From: Euzebya tangerina
GTDB lineage: Bacteria; Actinomycetota; Nitriliruptoria; Euzebyales; Euzebyaceae
Reading direction: 5' to 3'
Length of the DNA stretch: 64,000 nt
Assembly (NCBI RefSeq): GCF_003074135.1
Contig: NZ_PPDK01000001.1
Coordinates: 620,001-684,000 of the forward strand
A program made the position numbers and the translations under genes. This document shows positions 16,309 through 57,195 of the stretch, piece after piece. Position 1 is the stretch's first letter, and every line of letters begins with the position of its first letter. A model generated the notes under the pieces. That model was not told the origin of the DNA. It saw only the letters and a program-made list of their open reading frames with translations, and made no database searches.

Positions 16309-18884
16309 CACCCGCTCCCGTCGACGCTCGGCACGTCCTCGCCGGCCAGCAGAGTTCGCTGGGGCTTCTGGTGGACGAAGTAGGTGGCGCTGATCTGCTC
16401 ACCCGTGACCACCAGCAGGTTGTAGAGGTGGGCGAGGAACTCGTCCAGCTCGGCACGGAGTGCCCCATCGACCCCGGTCGCCAGCGACCTGGTGTCCGCC
16501 ACCCGGAGGGCTGTCGACGCCTCCAGCACACCCCGTTCGGCCGCTCCGATCCGGCCCGAGCCCGGATGGCCGGGCAGCGCTCGCAGATCGGTGGCGAGCC
16601 GGTCGATCTGGTACGTCAGCGACCGTGGGTTGTCCGGGTCGACCAGCAGCAGATCGAGCAGGGTGCCGACCTGGCCTCGCGACCGGTAGCGGCGGCGATA
16701 GGTGATGATCGACTCCGACACGCGGAGCACCGACTCGAGCATCAGGCTGTCGGCTGGGGTGTCGCGCACGTACGTGGTCGTCGCACGGAGCAGCGCGATG
16801 ACCTGGAGTGCCCGCTCCAAGCGCCGTCCGGCATCCATGAAGTGCCAGCCCACGTCACGCAGCATGTTCTCCGCCCCCAGCCCCTGGATGGCCAGCAGGC
16901 CGTGGAGGATCTGGGCGATGTCACCCGACGGCGTGCCGGTGAGCCCGCCCACCGCGAACCCGCTGCGATCTGCCGGGTCGGCGGGTCTGACACGACGTTG
17001 CAAATCGGTGACCACCAGCCAGGTGTCGCCGGACAGTTGGTCGCGGACGGCATCGACGCAGTCCAGCAGCTTGCTGATCGCATCGGCGAGCGTGCCGGGG
17101 CGGGTCTCGTCGGAGGCGATCATCTCCAACTCGTCGTCGGGGTCGGCCAGGCGTTCCTGGCCACCCTCGCCGATGAAGCCCGGGTAGGTCGTGGTGATCT
17201 GCGTGAGGGCCTGGAGCAGCCCATGGATGCCCGCGATGCCGGGGCCGTCGACGGCGTCGTTGAACTCGGTCCGGCGGTCCTCGACCTCGCGGAGGAGCCG
17301 TGCCACCCCCTCGGCCCGTTCGGCGTAGCGGCCCAACCAGAAGAGATTCTCGGCAGCACGGGCCGGCATGCCGGCGGCCGGGATCTCGAGGTCGTCGGAC
17401 TCCGGCGCGATCCAGAACCCGGTCAGCGTCTCGGGCTTGCCGGCGAGGACCCAGGTGTCCTTGCTCAGGGCGGCGGCGAAGTCCGACGTGATGGCGTCCG
17501 TCGTCACACCGTCGTCGCCCGAGGCAACCCGGGTGAGGCCACCCGGCATCACGGTGTAGCCGGCACCGTCGGCCACGGCGAAGGTCCGCAGGACCGACTG
17601 CCGAGGCACCACCCCGATGTCGGTCAGCGACGGGGCGGTGGCCAGCGGTCGCCGTTCCTGGGCGACCCACCGGTGTGGTGCCGCGGCGATGGCTGCGCGC
17701 AATGCCAGCAGCTGCCGCTCGTCGAGCAACGCGCCGACCAGCGGAGCGTCGGTGGCGTGCTGGCGGGAGGTGCGCCGGAACACCCACTCACTCGGTTCGG
17801 CCAGCGCCTCGGCGCGGTGGGCCGAATCGCCGCACCACAGGGATCGGGGCGCCGGCAGCCGCAGCGACTGGCCCAGCACGCGCTGGGCGATCGTCGGCAG
17901 GTAGGCCTGAAGTGCCGGGTTCTCGAGGACGCCGCTGCCAAGCGTGTTGACCACGGAGACGCGACCGCTGCGCACCGCCTGTCCGAGACCCGGCACGCCG
18001 ATCAGGGAGTCGGGTCGAAGCTCCAGCGGATCACACCACTCGGCGTCCATGCGGCGCAGGATCACGTCGACGGCTTCGAGGTTGCCCAGGGAGCGCAGCC
18101 ACACCCGCCCGTCCCGCACCACCAGGTCCGAGCCTTCGACCAGGGAGAGACCCAGCCGCGCGGCCAGGAAGGCGTGCTCGAAGGCGGTCTCGTTCCGCGA
18201 ACCAGGTGTCAGCAGGACCGTCCGTGGCAGTCGGGTCTGGGCCGGTGCCACCTCCGCCAGCCCCTGCCGCAACGCGCGGAAGTACGGCGCAAGTCGCTGC
18301 ACCTGGCTCTGGCGGTGGAGCTTCGGAAACACCCGCGACGTGACCACGCGGTTCTGCAGGGCGTAGGCAGCCCCGCTGGGCGCCTGGGTGCGGTCACCCA
18401 GGACCACCATGGCACCGCTGGCGTCCCGAGCCAGGTCCACGGCGTAGCTGAAGAGCTGGTAGGAGCCGGGCAGTCGGACGTCGGACTGCTGACGCAGGTA
18501 GCCCGGGTGGTCCAGCACCAGGACCGGCGGGATCAGCCCCTCCTCCAGCAGCCGACGCGGCCCGTACAGATCGGTCAGGATCAGGTTCAGCAGCTCGGCC
18601 CGTTGGACGACGCCGGACTCGATCTCGGCCCACTCCGATGCGTCGATGAGCAGGGGGAGGGGGTCCAACTGCCATCGCAGCCGCTCACCCGTCCGGGGGA
18701 CGTGGTAGGTGACGCCGTCGTCGTCGAGGAGGCGGGCGGCCTCGGCCCGGCGGGCCCGCAACTCACCGATGGAGAGATCGGCGAGCGCTCGTCCGAGGTG
18801 TTCCCAGGGGGGGCGGATCGACCCGTCGGGGGCGAGCATCTCGTCGTGACCAACCTGCGGCGGGGCGTACGCGACGGTGCTCAC
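16308..18884 (-). CDS. Fused circularly permuted ATP-grasp ligase and alpha-E protein
   Basis: An 858-residue fusion. Residues 1 to about 500 are a circularly permuted type-2 ATP-grasp domain, seen from RAELLNLILTDLYGPRRLLEEGLIPP, LPGSYQLFSYAVDLARDASG, FEHAFLAARLGLSLVEGSDL and the late catalytic strand KDTWVLAG. Residues of about 530-850 are an all-helical alpha-E domain, opening ARAAENLFWLGRYAERAEGVARLLREVEDRR. Such ligases are predicted to make amide bonds with ATP; alpha-E proteins are their constant partners. The pair is usually encoded as two genes, and the fusion fits a physical complex. GTG start at 18884, 75 bp after the upstream gene. Confidence 0.85.
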   Translation of the reverse strand: MSTVAYAPPQVGHDEMLAPDGSIRPPWEHLGRALADLSIGELRARRAEAARLLDDDGVTYHVPRTGERLRWQLDPLPLLIDASEWAEIESGVVQRAELLNLILTDLYGPRRLLEEGLIPPVLVLDHPGYLRQQSDVRLPGSYQLFSYAVDLARDASGAMVVLGDRTQAPSGAAYALQNRVVTSRVFPKLHRQSQVQRLAPYFRALRQGLAEVAPAQTRLPRTVLLTPGSRNETAFEHAFLAARLGLSLVEGSDLVVRDGRVWLRSLGNLEAVDVILRRMDAEWCDPLELRPDSLIGVPGLGQAVRSGRVSVVNTLGSGVLENPALQAYLPTIAQRVLGQSLRLPAPRSLWCGDSAHRAEALAEPSEWVFRRTSRQHATDAPLVGALLDERQLLALRAAIAAAPHRWVAQERRPLATAPSLTDIGVVPRQSVLRTFAVADGAGYTVMPGGLTRVASGDDGVTTDAITSDFAAALSKDTWVLAGKPETLTGFWIAPESDDLEIPAAGMPARAAENLFWLGRYAERAEGVARLLREVEDRRTEFNDAVDGPGIAGIHGLLQALTQITTTYPGFIGEGGQERLADPDDELEMIASDETRPGTLADAISKLLDCVDAVRDQLSGDTWLVVTDLQRRVRPADPADRSGFAVGGLTGTPSGDIAQILHGLLAIQGLGAENMLRDVGWHFMDAGRRLERALQVIALLRATTTYVRDTPADSLMLESVLRVSESIITYRRRYRSRGQVGTLLDLLLVDPDNPRSLTYQIDRLATDLRALPGHPGSGRIGAAERGVLEASTALRVADTRSLATGVDGALRAELDEFLAHLYNLLVVTGEQISATYFVHQKPQRTLLAGEDVPSVDGSG

Positions 18885-49508: not shown

Positions 49509-50933
49509 CTACGGGTCGTCGGCTTGGATCGGTGCCGGGGGTTCGGCCAGGAGATCCCCACCGTCGTCGCTGAAGATCTGGTCGAAGAAGGCCTGGGCCA
49601 GACGGTCGACGGCGTCGTGGATCTCCGCGTCATCACCCGGTCCGCTGAGGCCCAACGGGCCCGCCAGTGGGGAGAGGAACGGCTGCAGCGTGAAGTCCTG
49701 GTGGTTGGCGCCCGGGATGACGAACAGGCCGCGGTCGCCGGGTGAGCCCTCGTGCAACGCGCGCAGCACCTGGTCGTTGTCGTTGCCATCCCACTCCTCG
49801 CTGCGCAGGGACACGAGCGGGTCGTCGAGCCCCTCCGACAGCAGCTCACCCGGCACCGGCTCGACCCAGGGGTCCAGGCCGAACACCCCAGCGCAACGAT
49901 CGTCGGTCAGGCAGAGGCGCACCATTGCGCCACCGCCGGTGGAGTGGCCGGTCAGGCCAACCTGGCTGGTGTCGAGGGTCCCGAGGAGGTCGGGATGGTC
50001 GCCTTCGGCGATCTGGTCCAGGACCACGGCGACGTCCTCGGCGAAGGTCTGCTCCAGCAGGGTCGTGGCGGCGACGTAGGCGTCCCCGCCCACATCCTCC
50101 AACTCGGGGAGCGCGGCCGGGTTCTGCCCGATGACCTGTCCGGCCAGGTCGGACTCGTCGGCACCGAAGACCGGCCCGGACGGGAAGATCGAGGCGTTGG
50201 AGCCGTAGGTGTGGTCCAGGGAGATGACCACGTACCCGTGGCTGGCCAGGTGTTCGGCCAGGTCGGACTGCACGGTCCGGAACCCACCCCAGCCGTGGCT
50301 GTAGACCACGATCGGCCACTGGCCCGGCGCGATCGGCACGTCCGCCGTGGCACCCATGCGGGTGTGGGAGAGGTGGCCGAGCGTGAAGACCGGCAAACCC
50401 ACCTCCGGCGCGAGTTGCTCGGCGAAGGCCGCCGCGTCGGCCACCCAGGGTGCCGGGTCCCCGTCGACGGCCGTTGGATACCAGGCCTGAACCACGACCT
50501 CACGCTGTGCAGGCGGTGGTTGTGATGCGGTGAAGGCCGGGCTCAGCCGATCAGGGCGAGCGGTGTCGACCGCGATCCAGGCGGTGGTGCCGACCAGGTT
50601 GGGACCCTCGGGCTGGGGGAGCGCAGGGACCGGGAGCGCCGCCATGAGCAGGGCGGCCAGCGCCAGCACCACCGCTCCGCCAGCAATTGACACGATCCGG
50701 GGACCGGCCGTCTTGTCGCCTCCGATCCTGGCCACGCGCCACCCGAGGACCACGGCCAACAGGGCGTAGATCGGCGCGACCTGCCAGCGGGCGCCTTCGA
50801 TGACGGCTTGGAGGACCGCAACCGCCACACCACCGAACGCGACGGCTGCTCCGATGATCCGGCTGGTCCGAACCAGTGGCCAGAGCACCACAACGGCCGT
50901 GACGACGACCAGACCCACTTCCAGGGGACGCAC
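49509..50933 (-). CDS. Membrane-anchored alpha/beta hydrolase
   Basis: A 474-residue protein. Residues 1-110 hold three or four hydrophobic helices. From about 135 an alpha/beta-hydrolase resembling PAF-acetylhydrolase/dienelactone-hydrolase proteins follows: PIVVYSHGWGGFRTVQSDLAEHLASHGYVV, and the nucleophile elbow GHSTGGGAMVRLC. A late Asp (FGLDPWVEP) and a His in GANHQDF complete a plausible triad. It should work outside the membrane on esters or lipids. GTG start at 50933. Confidence 0.85.
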   Translation of the reverse strand: MRPLEVGLVVVTAVVVLWPLVRTSRIIGAAVAFGGVAVAVLQAVIEGARWQVAPIYALLAVVLGWRVARIGGDKTAGPRIVSIAGGAVVLALAALLMAALPVPALPQPEGPNLVGTTAWIAVDTARPDRLSPAFTASQPPPAQREVVVQAWYPTAVDGDPAPWVADAAAFAEQLAPEVGLPVFTLGHLSHTRMGATADVPIAPGQWPIVVYSHGWGGFRTVQSDLAEHLASHGYVVISLDHTYGSNASIFPSGPVFGADESDLAGQVIGQNPAALPELEDVGGDAYVAATTLLEQTFAEDVAVVLDQIAEGDHPDLLGTLDTSQVGLTGHSTGGGAMVRLCLTDDRCAGVFGLDPWVEPVPGELLSEGLDDPLVSLRSEEWDGNDNDQVLRALHEGSPGDRGLFVIPGANHQDFTLQPFLSPLAGPLGLSGPGDDAEIHDAVDRLAQAFFDQIFSDDGGDLLAEPPAPIQADDP

Positions 50934-51016
50934 CAGCGAAACCCTAGTGTCTGGCGGCCCCTCGCGGCGCGATCGGTTCCGTCGTCACTCGGCGGCCCTC
51001 GACTCCCAGGCCGGGC

Positions 51017-51682
51017 TCACGCGATGTCGCAGCCGGGGAAGGTCGCCTCACAGCCTTCCGCCAACTCCTGCACAGCCGCCTCGAGGTCGGTGACGGCGTC
51101 GTCGTGGTGGGCCTCGACGACGAAGAGGGCCGAGGTGGTGTCCGACGACACCGCGCCCTCGCTGGTCTGTCGCCAGCACCACCGTCGCGCGAGCAGTCGC
51201 CGGTCGGCGTCGGTGAAGATGACCTCACCGGGCTTCGCGATCGTGCTCGTGCCCGCGAGGTCCCGGCCCTCCTCGCCGCCGCGAGCGATCGTGACCAGGA
51301 TCGGCGTGCGCACGCGGTCCAGATCGAACACGGCGACGGGCAGGGCGTGCCGCAGCGACACGACGTTGCCCACGTCGACCAGTGGGTTGATGCTCGGCAG
51401 CGACCCGGTGCTGCGGTAGCGGCGACGGACCGCCTCTGCCGCGGACCGGTACGTGGTCGGATCCAGCCCCATGCGTCGGAACACGCCCCGCCATGCCGTC
51501 AGCGACGGCGTCAACGGCTCCAAGCTTCCGGGGGAGGGGAGGGGAGTGGCGTCGAGCCAGCCGGCATCAGTGGCATCGTCGGACCGCCGAACCGTGAGCG
51601 TTCTCCAGGCGAGGTCGGTGAACGTGTCCGTGATCGTCGTGTCGTGGCCGAAGACGGCCGGGATGGCGTCGGGTGCGGTCAT
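51017..51682 (-). CDS. B3/4 tRNA-binding domain protein
   Basis: A 221-residue protein with the B3/4 domain found in phenylalanyl-tRNA synthetase beta chains: SLPSINPLVDVGNVVSLRHALPVAVFDLDRV at about residues 94-124 is diagnostic. Stand-alone B3/4 proteins are thought to edit mischarged tRNA or be metabolite binders. Start ATG 51682 (MTAPDAIP) preserves the usual N-terminus. Its upstream side borders the island. Confidence 0.8.
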   Translation of the reverse strand: MTAPDAIPAVFGHDTTITDTFTDLAWRTLTVRRSDDATDAGWLDATPLPSPGSLEPLTPSLTAWRGVFRRMGLDPTTYRSAAEAVRRRYRSTGSLPSINPLVDVGNVVSLRHALPVAVFDLDRVRTPILVTIARGGEEGRDLAGTSTIAKPGEVIFTDADRRLLARRWCWRQTSEGAVSSDTTSALFVVEAHHDDAVTDLEAAVQELAEGCEATFPGCDIA

Positions 51683-51778
51683 GGGGAAACGGTACGGGGC
51701 ACGTGGACCTCCGAGGAGAACCGATGAAGGCCTGCGCAGCGGGACCAATCAGGTGCGATGTCGGCGCGTGCCGGCCCC

Positions 51779-51839
51779 CGAGGTTCTAGGAGGCCGTCTG
51801 CGGTCGGGCGCTGCCGGTGACCGAGATCGGCGCGGTGGT
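51779..51839. repeat. Left 61-bp direct repeat (orphan copy)
   Basis: Identical at all 61 positions to 54692-54752. It carries a duplicated 3' end of the TadG-like gene (TTAPISVTGSARPQTAS and stop) without the rest of that gene. Flanking bases differ on both sides. Confidence 0.95.
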
Positions 51840-51874
51840 TACCGTCGGAGGCACCCTTTACCCGTGCATTCATT

Positions 51875-51895
51875 GTCGAGACGAATTGTCTCGAC
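51875..51895. promoter_or_regulatory. 21-bp palindrome inside the island
   Basis: GTCGAGAC and GTCTCGAC, perfect over 8 bp, spaced by 5 bp. The size fits a TetR-family operator. It lies upstream of the SDR remnant in a stretch of about 225 bp (51840-52064) where no gene is seen. Confidence 0.45.
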
Positions 51896-52064
51896 CATTG
51901 TCCCGGGGCTGACGACCCCGACCGGCAGCGGTCATGCTCCAGCGGGCCGTGGGGAGCCCCACCAGGATCGCTTTAGGAGGACCGCGAGGTCGCCCTCGAA
52001 TCGACGTGGACCGCGGCGAGCTCGGGGGCAGCGGCGAGGGTCGCGACGACCGAGCTCGGACGCC

Positions 52065-52400
52065 GCGTCGGACTGGCCGAGCGAATACGCCCCGCTCTTC
52101 GACCCGTTCACCTCTGTCCAGCACTCACTAGGCGGGTCGGCACCGGACGGTGTCGCCCAGGCCATCTGGACCGCCGTGACCGACGGCAACCCCGACAAGG
52201 TCCGGTACTTCGCCGGTCCTGATGCGACGGGCATCCCCACGATGAAGCGGCTGCTCGGCGACGACCGACATTTTGCGACGGTCAAGAACGCCACGCTGCG
52301 CGAGCCATCCCGCGTCACCCGGGTCCTCGGCCGGCCGTTGAGCCGCTCCGGCGACCAGACGGTCGACATCGACCTGCCAGAGATCGGGCACGCGGCGTAG
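52065..52400 (+). pseudogene. C-terminal remnant of a short-chain dehydrogenase
   Basis: About 110 codons with an SDR-like tail: DGVAQAIWTAVTDGNPDKVRYFAGPDATGI followed by KRLLGDDRHFATVKNA and a short Arg-rich end. The N-terminal Rossmann part and the catalytic YxxxK are missing, and upstream sequence in the frame has no similarity, so this is a truncated gene. It is not a copy of the intact SDR at 53169. Confidence 0.5.
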
Positions 52401-52455
52401 GGCGGCCAGCCCCCTTACAAAGGCCCGCCGTCCCCGAACCGGCCGCCGGTCGGAT

Positions 52456-53082
52456 TCAGACGTCTGAGGGTCGGCGAGAGGACTCGGCGAGCGCCACGAC
52501 GGCACGCCGGGTCATGGTGATGAGGTCCGCCGGTGTGCACGGCAGCCCGGAGGTGGCGATCTGCGGGTCGGCGAGGACCGCCGCGTGACCCTGTGCAATG
52601 GCGTAGGCGGACACCATCAGCGTCGGTGCGTCCTCGCCAGCGATCTCGTCCGCAGCGCCAAGGATCAGGGCGGTCGCCCTAGTGCCGAGCGCGTCGAGGT
52701 CGGGGGCTTCGTGTTTGTCGATGCCCGGTGAGAACACGATGGCGTGGGCGGCGGGCTCGGCGGCCGCCCAGGCCACGAACGCCGCCATCATCCCGCCCAG
52801 GCGCTGCACCGGGTCGTGGTCCTGCACGGCGTCGAAGGCCTCGACGAGTCGGGCGTAGGGGGCGACCGCGGCGGATCGGAGGAGATCCTCGCGGTCGGAG
52901 AAGTGACGGTAGGGCGCGGCCGCGGACACGCCGGCGAGGACCGCGGCGTCCTTCATCGTGAAGCCGGTGACGCCAGCTTCGGCGACGAGCTCGAGCGTCG
53001 CCGAGCGCAGCGCGTTAGCGAGATCGCCGTGGTGGTAGCGACCGCTCGGCTTGGTGGACGTCGGGTCGGCCTGGGCGGACAT
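52456..53082 (-). CDS. TetR family transcriptional regulator
   Basis: A 208-residue regulator. The HTH lies at about residues 17-60: RYHHGDLANALRSATLELVAEAGVTGFTMKDAAVLAGVSAAAPYRHFSDREDLL, a canonical TetR N-terminus (YHHGDL type). The C-terminal ligand domain is helical and typical (GMMAAFVAWAAAEPAAHAIVF). Start ATG 53082 was chosen because MSAQ precedes the HTH; a GTG at 53130 is possible. Divergent from the SDR across 86 bp holding inverted repeats, hence a probable repressor of both genes. Confidence 0.9.
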   Translation of the reverse strand: MSAQADPTSTKPSGRYHHGDLANALRSATLELVAEAGVTGFTMKDAAVLAGVSAAAPYRHFSDREDLLRSAAVAPYARLVEAFDAVQDHDPVQRLGGMMAAFVAWAAAEPAAHAIVFSPGIDKHEAPDLDALGTRATALILGAADEIAGEDAPTLMVSAYAIAQGHAAVLADPQIATSGLPCTPADLITMTRRAVVALAESSRRPSDV

Positions 53083-53110
53083 CTGTGCCGATGTTAGCGA
53101 CGGCAGTCGC

Positions 53111-53158
53111 CTTATGTTATGGTTCTTCACATCCGTAAGTTACGACCATTCACATAAG
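53111..53158. promoter_or_regulatory. Double inverted repeat between tetR and the SDR gene
   Basis: CTTATGT at 53111-53117 mirrors ACATAAG at 53152-53158, and ATGGT/ACCAT lie just inside, so two nested symmetric half-sites span 48 bp. CGTAAG in the centre is a third similar half-site. The region is AT-rich and contains both promoters; it is the likely TetR operator. Confidence 0.5.
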
Positions 53159-53168
53159 GGTTCCCATC

Positions 53169-53996
53169 ATGGCCACCACCACCAAGACCGCCCTCGTCAC
53201 CGGCGCCACGACCGGCATCGGCGCCGCCGCCGCATCCGCCCTGGCCGTCCGCGGCTACACCGTCTATGGCACCGGCCGCGATTCCGGCCGCGTCCCAACC
53301 GATGGCGGCATCCGCCCGCTGGAGCTCGATGTGACCGACGAGGACTCCATGGTCAGCGCCGCGAAGGCCGTCCTCGCCGAGCGACCGGCCATCGACCTGC
53401 TGGTCAACAACGCCGGATACGGGCTCAACGGCTTCCTCGAGGACCTGCCCATCGACGAAATCCGCCGGCAGTTCGAGACCAACGTCTTCGGGCTGATCCG
53501 CATGACCCAACTCGCCGTCCCCTCGATGCGCGCCGCCGGCGGCGGCAGGGTGATCCACGTCGGATCCGTCGGCGGGATCATCACCGCACCCGGAGCGGGC
53601 GCTTATCACGCCTCCAAATTCGCCGTGGAGGCGATCAGCGACGTCCACCGCATGGAACTGCGGCCCTTCGGCATCCGCGTGACCCTCATCCAGCCCACCG
53701 GCGTCCACACCCCCTTCCTCACCAAACTCGACGACACCTACCCCGGCACCGGACCCGACAGCGCCTACGCCCACCTCCTCGAAGGCCACAAACAATCGGT
53801 CGCAGACCTCCACGCCAACGGCCCCAACTTCCTCGTCATCCCTGCAGAGAAGGTCGGTGAGGAGATCGCCAAGCAGGCCGACGCCCGGCGCCCCAAGTCC
53901 CGCGTTCGGGTCGGCGCATCGGCCAAGATGTTCGCCACGCTCCGCCGCAACGTCCCCGACAACGTCTGGGACCGCATGGCCACCAGCGCTATTTGA
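53169..53996 (+). CDS. Short-chain dehydrogenase/reductase
   Basis: A 275-residue classical SDR. ALVTGATTGIGAAAASAL is the cofactor loop, LLVNNAGYG the NNAG motif, VGSVGGI the catalytic Ser, and YHASK the catalytic Tyr-Lys. DVTDEDS suggests a role for an Asp near the adenosine. It is close in form to oxidoreductases that act on small carbonyl or alcohol substrates; the substrate is unknown. Controlled by the divergent TetR gene. Confidence 0.9.
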   Translation: MATTTKTALVTGATTGIGAAAASALAVRGYTVYGTGRDSGRVPTDGGIRPLELDVTDEDSMVSAAKAVLAERPAIDLLVNNAGYGLNGFLEDLPIDEIRRQFETNVFGLIRMTQLAVPSMRAAGGGRVIHVGSVGGIITAPGAGAYHASKFAVEAISDVHRMELRPFGIRVTLIQPTGVHTPFLTKLDDTYPGTGPDSAYAHLLEGHKQSVADLHANGPNFLVIPAEKVGEEIAKQADARRPKSRVRVGASAKMFATLRRNVPDNVWDRMATSAI

Positions 53997-54140
53997 GCGT
54001 CGAGCCCCCGCGCTGAAGGAGCCGGGCTCCACGTGCAGATGGTGCGCTCCGGATGAGCCGGCCTTAGGGGGTTGGCCGACATTGGATGGCCGGGGCCCTT
54101 GGAGCGATCGCGCGTGAAGACCGGCGTCGATCCGTCGATG
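53997..54140. other. No gene seen after the SDR stop
   Basis: Non-coding-looking sequence between the SDR stop and the HTH remnant. I see neither a convincing hairpin nor a coding frame. Confidence 0.4.
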
Positions 54141-54287
54141 GTGTGGACGGCTGGGCAGGCGCCCTTGTTCTCGGAGGAACTCCAGTGTCACGTACGCCTC
54201 TTCCTCACTGACCGACAGCGCAGCCGCGAGTTCGGCCGCGGTCGCGGAGCGGGCGGACCGCAGATATGCCCATGCCTCTGTTACCCC
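54141..54287 (-). pseudogene. Winged-helix HTH fragment
   Basis: About 49 codons read GVTEAWAYLRSARSATAAELAAALSVSEEEAYVTLEFLREQGRL, a helix-turn-helix/winged-helix pattern like MarR- or DprA-type domains. No start or stable continuation exists; the frame runs into low-complexity sequence on both sides. It is probably a gene remnant. Confidence 0.4.
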
Positions 54288-54295
54288 CGGGAAGC

Positions 54296-54690
54296 CGCAC
54301 GACCACCATCTTTGCCGACTGGGTATTCGCCCAGCCCTCGGGGATCGGGAACGACGGCCTGGCCCGCGTCGTCGGTCACGAACTGTTCCATGCGGTTGTG
54401 AACGGCCGAGGCGAGCAGGAGTCATCCTGGGTTTGCTCTCAGGATTGTCATGACATGCCGTGGTGGTTGCGGACTGACGGGAAACCGGACTGGGAACGGG
54501 AGCAGCGCATTAACGCCTCCCTTCTTCTTGATGAGGTCCGGGTCGAGCGGGCGCCGCACGAGACCGGGTGGTATCTCGATCCGCCCCGGGCCGGGGGCAT
54601 AGTGGGTATCTTGGCCGACGCACGCCTTGCAATCCGAGACGGTCTGAGACTGCGCTCTTCGGGCGATTCAGTGTCGGCGCCTATCGGCTC
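54296..54690 (+). pseudogene. Zinc-metallopeptidase-like remnant (HELFH)
   Basis: The frame opens about TTTIFADWVFAQPSG and contains VVGHELFHAVVNGRGE (HELFH at 54377-54391), an HExxH zinc site, followed by a downstream acidic stretch (LLLDEVRVERAPHETGWYLDPP). Only about 130 codons are related; no ribosome site or initial domain is seen, and the frame reads into the 61-bp repeat. It is lower in GC than its surroundings, consistent with imported DNA. Confidence 0.5.
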
Positions 54691-54691
54691 A

Positions 54692-54752
54692 CGAGGTTCT
54701 AGGAGGCCGTCTGCGGTCGGGCGCTGCCGGTGACCGAGATCGGCGCGGTGGT
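54692..54752. repeat. Right 61-bp direct repeat (in the TadG-like gene)
   Basis: Identical to 51779-51839. This copy is in its natural context: it covers the last 17 codons and stop of the gene at 54699-55175. Confidence 0.95.
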
Positions 54753-55175
54753 CGCCCCGACCATGCGCAGGAGGAGGAACTGGTACTGACCCTCCACCGT
54801 GACGGTGACGATGTCGGGGCTGGCGCTGACCGACCGGCCCGTGACCAGCCCCGACTGCGGGTGTGCGTCCACGGCGGCGAGGGCTCGGGCTTGCGCATGA
54901 TGTGGGTCGAGGACCGGGGCCTGATCGCCGAGGTCGTCGCGCAGTTCGGTCACCGCCACGGCCGTCGCGCCCGCGATGGCGGCGTCATCGGCGATGGCAG
55001 CGATCCGGCCCCGCGCCGATAACGCGGCCCAGAGATCCAGGCTCATCCCGCCCAGCAGCAGGACCAGCAGCGGCGTGAGGACCATCCAGACCGTGACCGA
55101 TCCGGACTCACCCATCGCGTCGGCGGGCCGTCGTCCGTCAGTGGGCCGTCGTCGTGGAGTCCGGAAGCGGTTCAT
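54699..55175 (-). CDS. TadG-like Flp pilus assembly protein
   Basis: A 158-residue protein with one N-terminal transmembrane segment (GSVTVWMVLTPLLVLLLGGMSLDLWAAL) and a secreted-looking Ala-rich body with paired beta strands. It matches actinobacterial TadE/G-type pseudopilins (Rv3654c-like). ATG at 55175 overlaps the upstream gene by 4 bp. Its 3' end is duplicated at 51779-51839, marking the island edge. Confidence 0.75.
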   Translation of the reverse strand: MNRFRTPRRRPTDGRRPADAMGESGSVTVWMVLTPLLVLLLGGMSLDLWAALSARGRIAAIADDAAIAGATAVAVTELRDDLGDQAPVLDPHHAQARALAAVDAHPQSGLVTGRSVSASPDIVTVTVEGQYQFLLLRMVGATTAPISVTGSARPQTAS

Positions 55176-55624
55176 GGCTGGCTGCGGAACGGGTTGAGCC
55201 TCCGGCGATGCTCAGCGCTTACCGTCGGTGGGGAGAACTCGCCGAGGAACGGCACCACGAGCGGGTCGCCGGTGATGCCGACCTGTGCACGGACCTCGCC
55301 CTCTCGGGGGGCCTGGCCATCCACCGGGGGTGGCAGGTGGATCTCGACGACGATGCCGTGGGGGCCGATGCCACGACCCGCGAGGAGCGATCGCGCGGCC
55401 TCGCTGCCCGCGTGCTCGGCCTGACCACTGTCGATGGCCAACGCCGCCGCGCGGGCCGCCTCACGGGCTGCCGCCCCCGCAGCATCGTGCTGGGCCGCCC
55501 AGCCGGGGAGGAGCCCCGCAAGCACCATGATCGGCAGCAGGATGGTCGCGATTCCGACAGCCCACTCGGTGGTGACGAAGCCACCGTCGTCCCGCCGCTG
55601 GTCGGCGGCCGGCAAGCTCGTCAC
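55172..55624 (-). CDS. TadE-like pilus assembly protein
   Basis: A 150-residue protein. GGFVTTEWAVGIATILLPIMVLAGLLPGW resembles the TadE prepilin-like start (G-F-x-x-x-E) with a hydrophobic helix, followed by an Arg/Ala-rich periplasmic-type domain. The GTG overlaps the preceding stop (GTGA), so it is translationally coupled to its neighbours. Confidence 0.75.
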   Translation of the reverse strand: MTSLPAADQRRDDGGFVTTEWAVGIATILLPIMVLAGLLPGWAAQHDAAGAAAREAARAAALAIDSGQAEHAGSEAARSLLAGRGIGPHGIVVEIHLPPPVDGQAPREGEVRAQVGITGDPLVVPFLGEFSPPTVSAEHRRRLNPFRSQP

Positions 55625-56010
55625 TCGGCGACCTCAGCCCGCACGTGGCCCGACACCTCGACACGCCGCTCCGGCAGGCCTGGGACCCAGGGCGTGAAGG
55701 CTGCGGTCACGCGGGCGACCGCTCCACCCGGCCCCAGCGAACAGCCGACCTCCGACACCGAGTCCGCCATGCCCCCCAGCCCAGCCCCGATGGCGGCGTC
55801 GATCCGGGCCACGCAGATCGCCTCGGACCGTGCGGCCACAGCCTGCCTGGCCCCCTCCTCTGCGGCCGACTGCAGCACACCGGTCGCATAGTGCACCACG
55901 AGTGCGTTGGCGAAGACGCTGAGCAGCGTCATCGTCAGCCCCACCATCGCGATGAAGGCGGGCGTGATGTACCCCGCCTCGCCGCTGATGCTGCGAGCCG
56001 CGCGGATCAT
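55621..56010 (-). CDS. TadE-like pilus assembly protein
   Basis: A 129-residue protein with one hydrophobic segment (GYITPAFIAMVGLTMTLLSVFANALVV) and Ala-rich, Cys-containing rest (AICVARIDAAIG, VGCSLGPGG): TadE-like. It lies 20 bp downstream of the small pilin, third of a chain of overlapping Tad accessory genes. Confidence 0.75.
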   Translation of the reverse strand: MIRAARSISGEAGYITPAFIAMVGLTMTLLSVFANALVVHYATGVLQSAAEEGARQAVAARSEAICVARIDAAIGAGLGGMADSVSEVGCSLGPGGAVARVTAAFTPWVPGLPERRVEVSGHVRAEVAE

Positions 56011-56030
56011 CCGGCGGTGTCCTGGCGCCG

Positions 56031-56231
56031 CTACAGGCCGAGCGCGTTGGTGATCTGGTTGACCACACCCTCGCCGACGCCGCTGAGCAGTCCCCAGATC
56101 ACGACCAGCGCAGCAACGCCCAGTGCCGCGTTGGCGAGCAACTCCGCCGTGGAGAAGCCATCCTCGTCCTCGAGCCGGTCTTGCAGCGCACTCAGGAGCG
56201 TGGTCCAGAGCGTGATGATCGTGCTGTTCAT
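56031..56231 (-). CDS. Flp-like small pilin (DUF4244-like)
   Basis: A 66-residue protein. DEDGFSTAELLANAALGVAALVVIWGLL is a class-III prepilin signature: G then F-S-T-A-E, with the +5 Glu typical of cleaved pilins, and one hydrophobic helix. The N-terminal leader of about 25 residues (MNSTIITLWTTLLSALQ) is the piece removed. AGGCAAGGGA precedes the ATG. It would be the main fibre subunit of the Tad pilus. Confidence 0.8.
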   Translation of the reverse strand: MNSTIITLWTTLLSALQDRLEDEDGFSTAELLANAALGVAALVVIWGLLSGVGEGVVNQITNALGL

Positions 56232-56280
56232 TCCCTTGCCTTTCGTGTTGCCATGGTGGTGATGCGGGGATCGGGGCGGC

Positions 56281-57195
56281 TCAGAGGCCGAGCAGTCCGG
56301 GTAGTGGCGCCGCGATGAAGAGCAGCATGAGCGGGGCCAGCAGTCCGATGATGGGCAGGAGGATCGCGGCACGCTTTGCCGTGGCCTCACGGCGGAGGCG
56401 GGTGAGCTGGTTCGCACGAGCATCGCGGGCCAGGCGGAGCAGCTCGGGAGCGGCGTCGATGCCGTGTCGGATCGCGCTGGCCAGCAGCCGATGGACCCTG
56501 GCAGCCTCTGGCTCAGGTGTGGTGCGGGCGACGGCGTCGAGCGCCGCTTCCAGCGGCTGACCAGCTCGGTGCTGGGCGAGTGCTTCCCGCAACTCGTCGG
56601 CCAGGTCACCCTGCGTGCGCTCGAGCGTGGCCGAGAGGCTCACCACCACCGAGCCGGTAGCGCGAAGGCGCATCGCCAGCAGCTGACACAGTGGCGGGAT
56701 GGCCGCGCGCAGTTGCTGCCGTCGGTGGTCGATCGCACGGTCGACCGCACCCGTGGGGCGGAGCACCTGCGTCGCGCCGGCGAGGAGCCCGACGGCCAGC
56801 GACGCGAGTGGGGCCAGCCCGACAGAAGCCCCGACCCCGACCCCCAGGGCCCCGCCGCCCGCCGCGAAGAGCAGTTGGCGAACGCGGTACTCGCCGACCA
56901 TCTGTCCCGGGGTGCCCTGATACAGACCGGACTGCGCCAGTCGCGCCTCGAGTTGCGGGTCCGAGCGACCGCCGTGGAGGGTGCCCGCCAGGCGCTGCCG
57001 CCAGGTGGCCGGCTGGCCGGCCCTCCGGGCCACCGGTGGGGCGACCACGGGTTGTCCCAGCGCGGAGAGCCCCGGTGCCGCGTACGGCCGGACCCGGCCT
57101 GCCAGCCGCCGCATCGGTCGGCGGTAGAGCACCAGGGCCGTGAGGACGAAGGTGGCCGTCGAGGCGGAGGCGATGAGGACGAGGATGGCCGTCAC
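56281..57195 (-). CDS. tadC: Tad pilus inner-membrane platform protein TadC
   Basis: A 304-residue protein with the GspF/TadC-type fold: a long basic N-terminus, two hydrophobic cores at about 115-160 and the C-terminal pair (ILLPIIGLLAPLMLLFIAAPLPGLLGL). LREALAQHRAGQPLEAALDAVARTTPEP resembles the GspF helical cytoplasmic domain. GTG start overlaps tadB by 4 bp. It anchors the ATPase to the membrane. Confidence 0.85.
   Translation of the reverse strand: MTAILVLIASASTATFVLTALVLYRRPMRRLAGRVRPYAAPGLSALGQPVVAPPVARRAGQPATWRQRLAGTLHGGRSDPQLEARLAQSGLYQGTPGQMVGEYRVRQLLFAAGGGALGVGVGASVGLAPLASLAVGLLAGATQVLRPTGAVDRAIDHRRQQLRAAIPPLCQLLAMRLRATGSVVVSLSATLERTQGDLADELREALAQHRAGQPLEAALDAVARTTPEPEAARVHRLLASAIRHGIDAAPELLRLARDARANQLTRLRREATAKRAAILLPIIGLLAPLMLLFIAAPLPGLLGL

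Follow-up and report, generated by a model that had tools for sequence, protein, structure and literature searches.

In the genome of Euzebya tangerina the 3' end of a tadG-like gene of a Tad pilus locus is present twice within 3 kb, once on the gene itself and once as a cut-off duplicate, which raises the question of what the DNA between the two copies is and how it came to be there. We addressed this question in a window of 64,000 nucleotides (contig NZ_PPDK01000001.1, positions 620,001 to 684,000 of the forward strand); unless stated otherwise, positions given here are those of the window, and the features of the locus are listed in Table 1.

An exact direct repeat of the end of tadG

The earlier note on this DNA had described an exact direct repeat of 61 bp, and both copies were found where it had placed them, identical at 61/61 bases and with a spacing of 2913. 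This pair was the longest spaced exact repeat in a repeat scan of the window, and a chance origin is excluded, because the next longest measures only 22 bp (direct, at 18162 and 25478, 7316 bp apart). In the complete genome sequence (4.78 Mb in 12 contigs) there are exactly two copies of the 61-bp sequence, and no third genomic site was found for its first 23 bp when up to 3 mismatches were allowed. The last ~17 codons of tadG and its stop codon fall within the right copy, and the statement in the note that this copy represents the natural end of the gene held up when the TadG C-terminus was aligned with those of three congeners: only about half of the TadG residues are shared with these species, and their TadG proteins end at about the same point, which identifies the right copy as the natural gene end. 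The Tad locus that ends with this gene is an ordinary one, with RcpC/CpaB, TadZ-, TadA-, TadB- and TadC-like genes. Folding of the repeat was unremarkable (z-score 0.30), and no convincing recombinase core was recognised within it.

The sequences flanking the two copies had been said to differ, which is true for the right side, where the similarity breaks off sharply (3/20 identical), but not for the left side, where 15/20 bases are identical in register. Such a level of in-register identity has a frequency of ~7e-5 among random 20-mer pairs from the window, while the score of a gapped local alignment over 200-bp flanks was not significant. Because the 20 bp beyond the gene end are this similar, the true repeat is probably ~81 bp long, with a coding part that is exact and a non-coding end that has diverged.

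Table 1. Features of the duplicated tadG end, the segment between the copies and the adjoining genes (positions in the window)
Feature	Position	Strand	Evidence or reading
B3/4-domain gene, intact, flanking the island on its left and outside it	51017..51748	-	PF03483 E=1.2e-22
Outward extension of left repeat	51759..51778	+	15/20 identical to 54672-54691
Left repeat copy	51779..51839	+	Cut-off duplicate of tadG 3' end; attR-like; exact match to 54692-54752
Palindrome GTCGAGAC-GAATT-GTCTCGAC, 21 bp, operator-like	51875..51895	.	Read directly from the sequence
Second short-chain dehydrogenase, C-terminal fragment (remnant)	52059..52400	+	Weak match to C-terminal part of NF004826, E=0.008
TetR-family regulator, intact	52456..53130	-	PF00440 E=3e-8
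Imperfect inverted repeat between divergent TetR and SDR genes	53110..53159	.	21-nt arms, 71% complementary
Short-chain dehydrogenase/reductase (SDR), intact passenger gene	53169..53996	+	PF00106 E=3.6e-42; NF004826 E=2.8e-74, below cut-off
Possible helix-turn-helix fragment	54164..54302	-	Weak HTH_20/EutK_C matches, all below cut-off
Open frame with HELFH (HExxH) motif, running into right repeat	54266..54691	+	Motif; no relatives detected
Extension of right repeat past tadG stop	54672..54691	+	Diverged, 15/20 versus 51759-51778
Right repeat copy	54692..54752	+	Natural tadG 3' end including stop codon; attL-like; TadG C-terminus aligned with three congeners
tadG-like gene, target, full length kept	54699..55175	-	PF13400 E=3.2e-4, just under cut-off; three-congener alignment

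Gene content of the segment

The island is ~2.9 kb long, with an interior of 2.85 kb between the repeats. Only a divergent pair of a TetR-family regulator gene and an SDR gene is intact, and the inverted repeat between them is a probable TetR operator. The PDB entries nearest to the SDR are a putative dehydrogenase (3m1a) and 17-beta-hydroxysteroid dehydrogenases. The remainder of the interior includes gene fragments, which points to decay. For the second SDR, of which a C-terminal part is left, no relative was found in 60 related genomes, and the palindrome next to the left repeat is perhaps a leftover of a lost regulator/SDR unit. The frame with the HExxH motif, a possible fragment of a metallopeptidase, was unmatched in phages, plasmids, 119 related genomes, PHROGs, NCBIfam and Pfam. 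In base and codon composition the intact passenger genes match the host, hence foreignness is not marked by composition; a lower third-position GC (0.73) was seen in the HExxH frame alone.

When the frames between the repeats were searched against Pfam and PHROGs, none matched an integrase, a relaxase, a transposase or a phage gene, in agreement with the earlier note that no recombinase is left. There are five tyrosine recombinase matches in the genome, the nearest at ~177 kb from the island, and no match to a serine recombinase (PF00239), which led us to reject a serine integrase. No direct repeats of >20 bp with a spacing of >200 bp were seen within ~10 kb of the integrases of this genome. 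A functional IME, ICE or prophage was rejected for the absence of an integrase of its own, and an insertion sequence or transposon for the lack of a transposase and of inverted ends (inverted matches between the inner ends do not exceed 6 bp, which is chance level), and also because 61 bp far exceeds the usual target duplications. Neither is this a tRNA-targeted island, as the window contains no tRNA or tmRNA and there was no Rfam match in 50000-57000. A phage or plasmid origin was likewise set aside: the HExxH fragment has no counterpart in records of either kind, and the DNA of the island was matched only within the SDR gene and in segments next to it.

Distribution of the passenger genes

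The TetR/SDR pair has a patchy distribution. Among the sampled members of the class there were no relatives of the SDR at E<=1e-40 and none of the TetR regulator at E<=1e-25, and the best sampled relative of the SDR (53% identity) was found elsewhere in the phylum. A scan for the SDR in a wider collection gave 80 loci with up to 48% identity, none of which had the TetR gene or other pieces of the island nearby. In the congeners the island DNA is absent, with only short generic SDR-like matches, and no viral contig with the repeat sequence was found. By this patchy distribution the passenger genes look foreign.

Origin of the segment

We consider it probable that the 2.9-kb segment is a decayed small integrative element, which inserted at the 3' end of tadG, most likely by means of a tyrosine recombinase, and is now in a CIME-like state. 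The attachment site of this element would have mimicked the last codons of tadG, its stop codon and ~20 bp past the stop. Site-specific recombination with the 3' end of tadG, in which the two repeat copies acted as att sites, would have swapped the chromosomal end of the gene for the equivalent copy of the element, thus leaving tadG intact, and the original end would have come to lie beyond the element, at 51779-51839. Later the element would have lost its integrase and whatever transfer genes it had, keeping one intact TetR/SDR unit and several fragments. Integration with duplication of the gene end had also been proposed in the earlier note, and it stands as the best-supported reading, with tadG restored and no recombinase inside; the event itself, its enzyme, which copy was imported and the loss of the integrase are what we infer from this arrangement.

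Such an event would be of a well-known kind, the general principle being already known. Most IMEs with one tyrosine recombinase use specific sites, including the 3' ends of tRNA genes and of housekeeping-protein genes, and the target gene is not disrupted when its end lies inside one of the flanking repeats (PMC5704250). Integration at the 3' ends of protein genes is documented and common for tyrosine-integrase elements (PMC5704250), and the earlier view that a protein-coding target is unusual finds no support. As with IMEs and genomic islands at the 3' ends of protein genes (PMC5704250), one repeat copy restores the target here, whereas the integrase is missing, and the target is a TadG-like pilus gene instead of a housekeeping gene such as that of a ribosomal protein. 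CIMEs are decayed ICEs or IMEs without integration or transfer genes which have retained attL and attR (PMC5704250). The island shares with these the flanking direct repeats of attL/attR type that include the target-gene end, as well as an interior from which integration and transfer genes are absent, but the likeness is a structural one: no related integrative element is known at the tadG site, and the island measures only 2.9 kb.

Three other explanations were weighed, which in order of falling likelihood are recombination of circular DNA, local rearrangement and assembly error. A circle carrying the tadG 3' end of a related strain could have integrated by RecA-dependent or illegitimate (Campbell-type) recombination without a site-specific recombinase. 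This would give an identical structure with no recombinase present, and DNA from a related strain would fit the partly diverged 20 bp, but homologous recombination would have had only a short stretch of 61-81 bp to act on, single-crossover circles usually have longer homology, and the repeat ends just past the stop codon, as is typical of att mimics; we consider this route unlikely. Slightly more doubtful still is that no mobile element was involved, and that the tadG end was duplicated locally in a rearrangement (replication slippage or break repair), with the interior stemming from the same or later events. The interior is indeed pieced together from gene fragments, and the absence of the B3/4-domain gene from the congeners as well makes the entire flank variable; against this, the insertion left both neighbouring genes whole, and the repeat combines 61/61 with 15/20 identity. 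A single recent copying event fits this pattern poorly, because both parts of the repeat should then be equally alike. The pattern would be better explained if the element arrived with a gene end of its own, of which one part was under coding constraint, as the comparison of these 20 bases suggests. An assembly artefact, with a circular or unrelated contig joined via the 61-bp repeat, is very improbable: nothing speaks positively for it, ordinary reads exceed the repeat in length, the site is internal to a 3.4-Mb contig in an assembly of 12 contigs, and the intact interior genes match the host in codon composition.

With a decayed integrative element as the probable source, the list of possible insertion points for integrative elements would grow by a Tad pilus gene, and the case would show a metabolic TetR/SDR unit reaching a thinly sampled lineage of actinobacteria. 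That the two parts of the repeat diverged unequally would illustrate how selection may preserve the coding portion of such an att mimic. It is also conceivable, but improbable, that an undescribed family of actinobacterial integrative elements targets the 3' end of tadG, and that with each insertion its integrase gives a pilus-associated protein a new C-terminus, thereby exchanging the end of TadG.

The empty site and the outer flanks

An empty site had been expected to read straight from 51778 into 54753, a junction which would remove the end of tadG altogether. The expected empty site should instead keep one repeat copy, and thus read from 51778 into 54692 or, equally, from 51839 into 54753. 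The three congeners, the nearest relatives but too distant for this purpose, show a variable flank and are unusable as empty sites, because other genes follow tadG and the B3/4-domain gene is absent: according to the translations, one congener has a flavin-reductase-like frame downstream of tadG which ends 3 bp from its stop, and the other two have acetyltransferase-like frames. In none of the three does the end of the resident tadG recur beyond chance, and a TadG profile search of the named genomes gave no match. As the B3/4-domain gene was unmatched in the three congeners searched, the left flank that carries it may hold further acquired DNA. On the other side, ~19.6 kb to the right of the window end, a tandem array of at least 5 identical copies of a 20-bp unit starts at contig position 703585.
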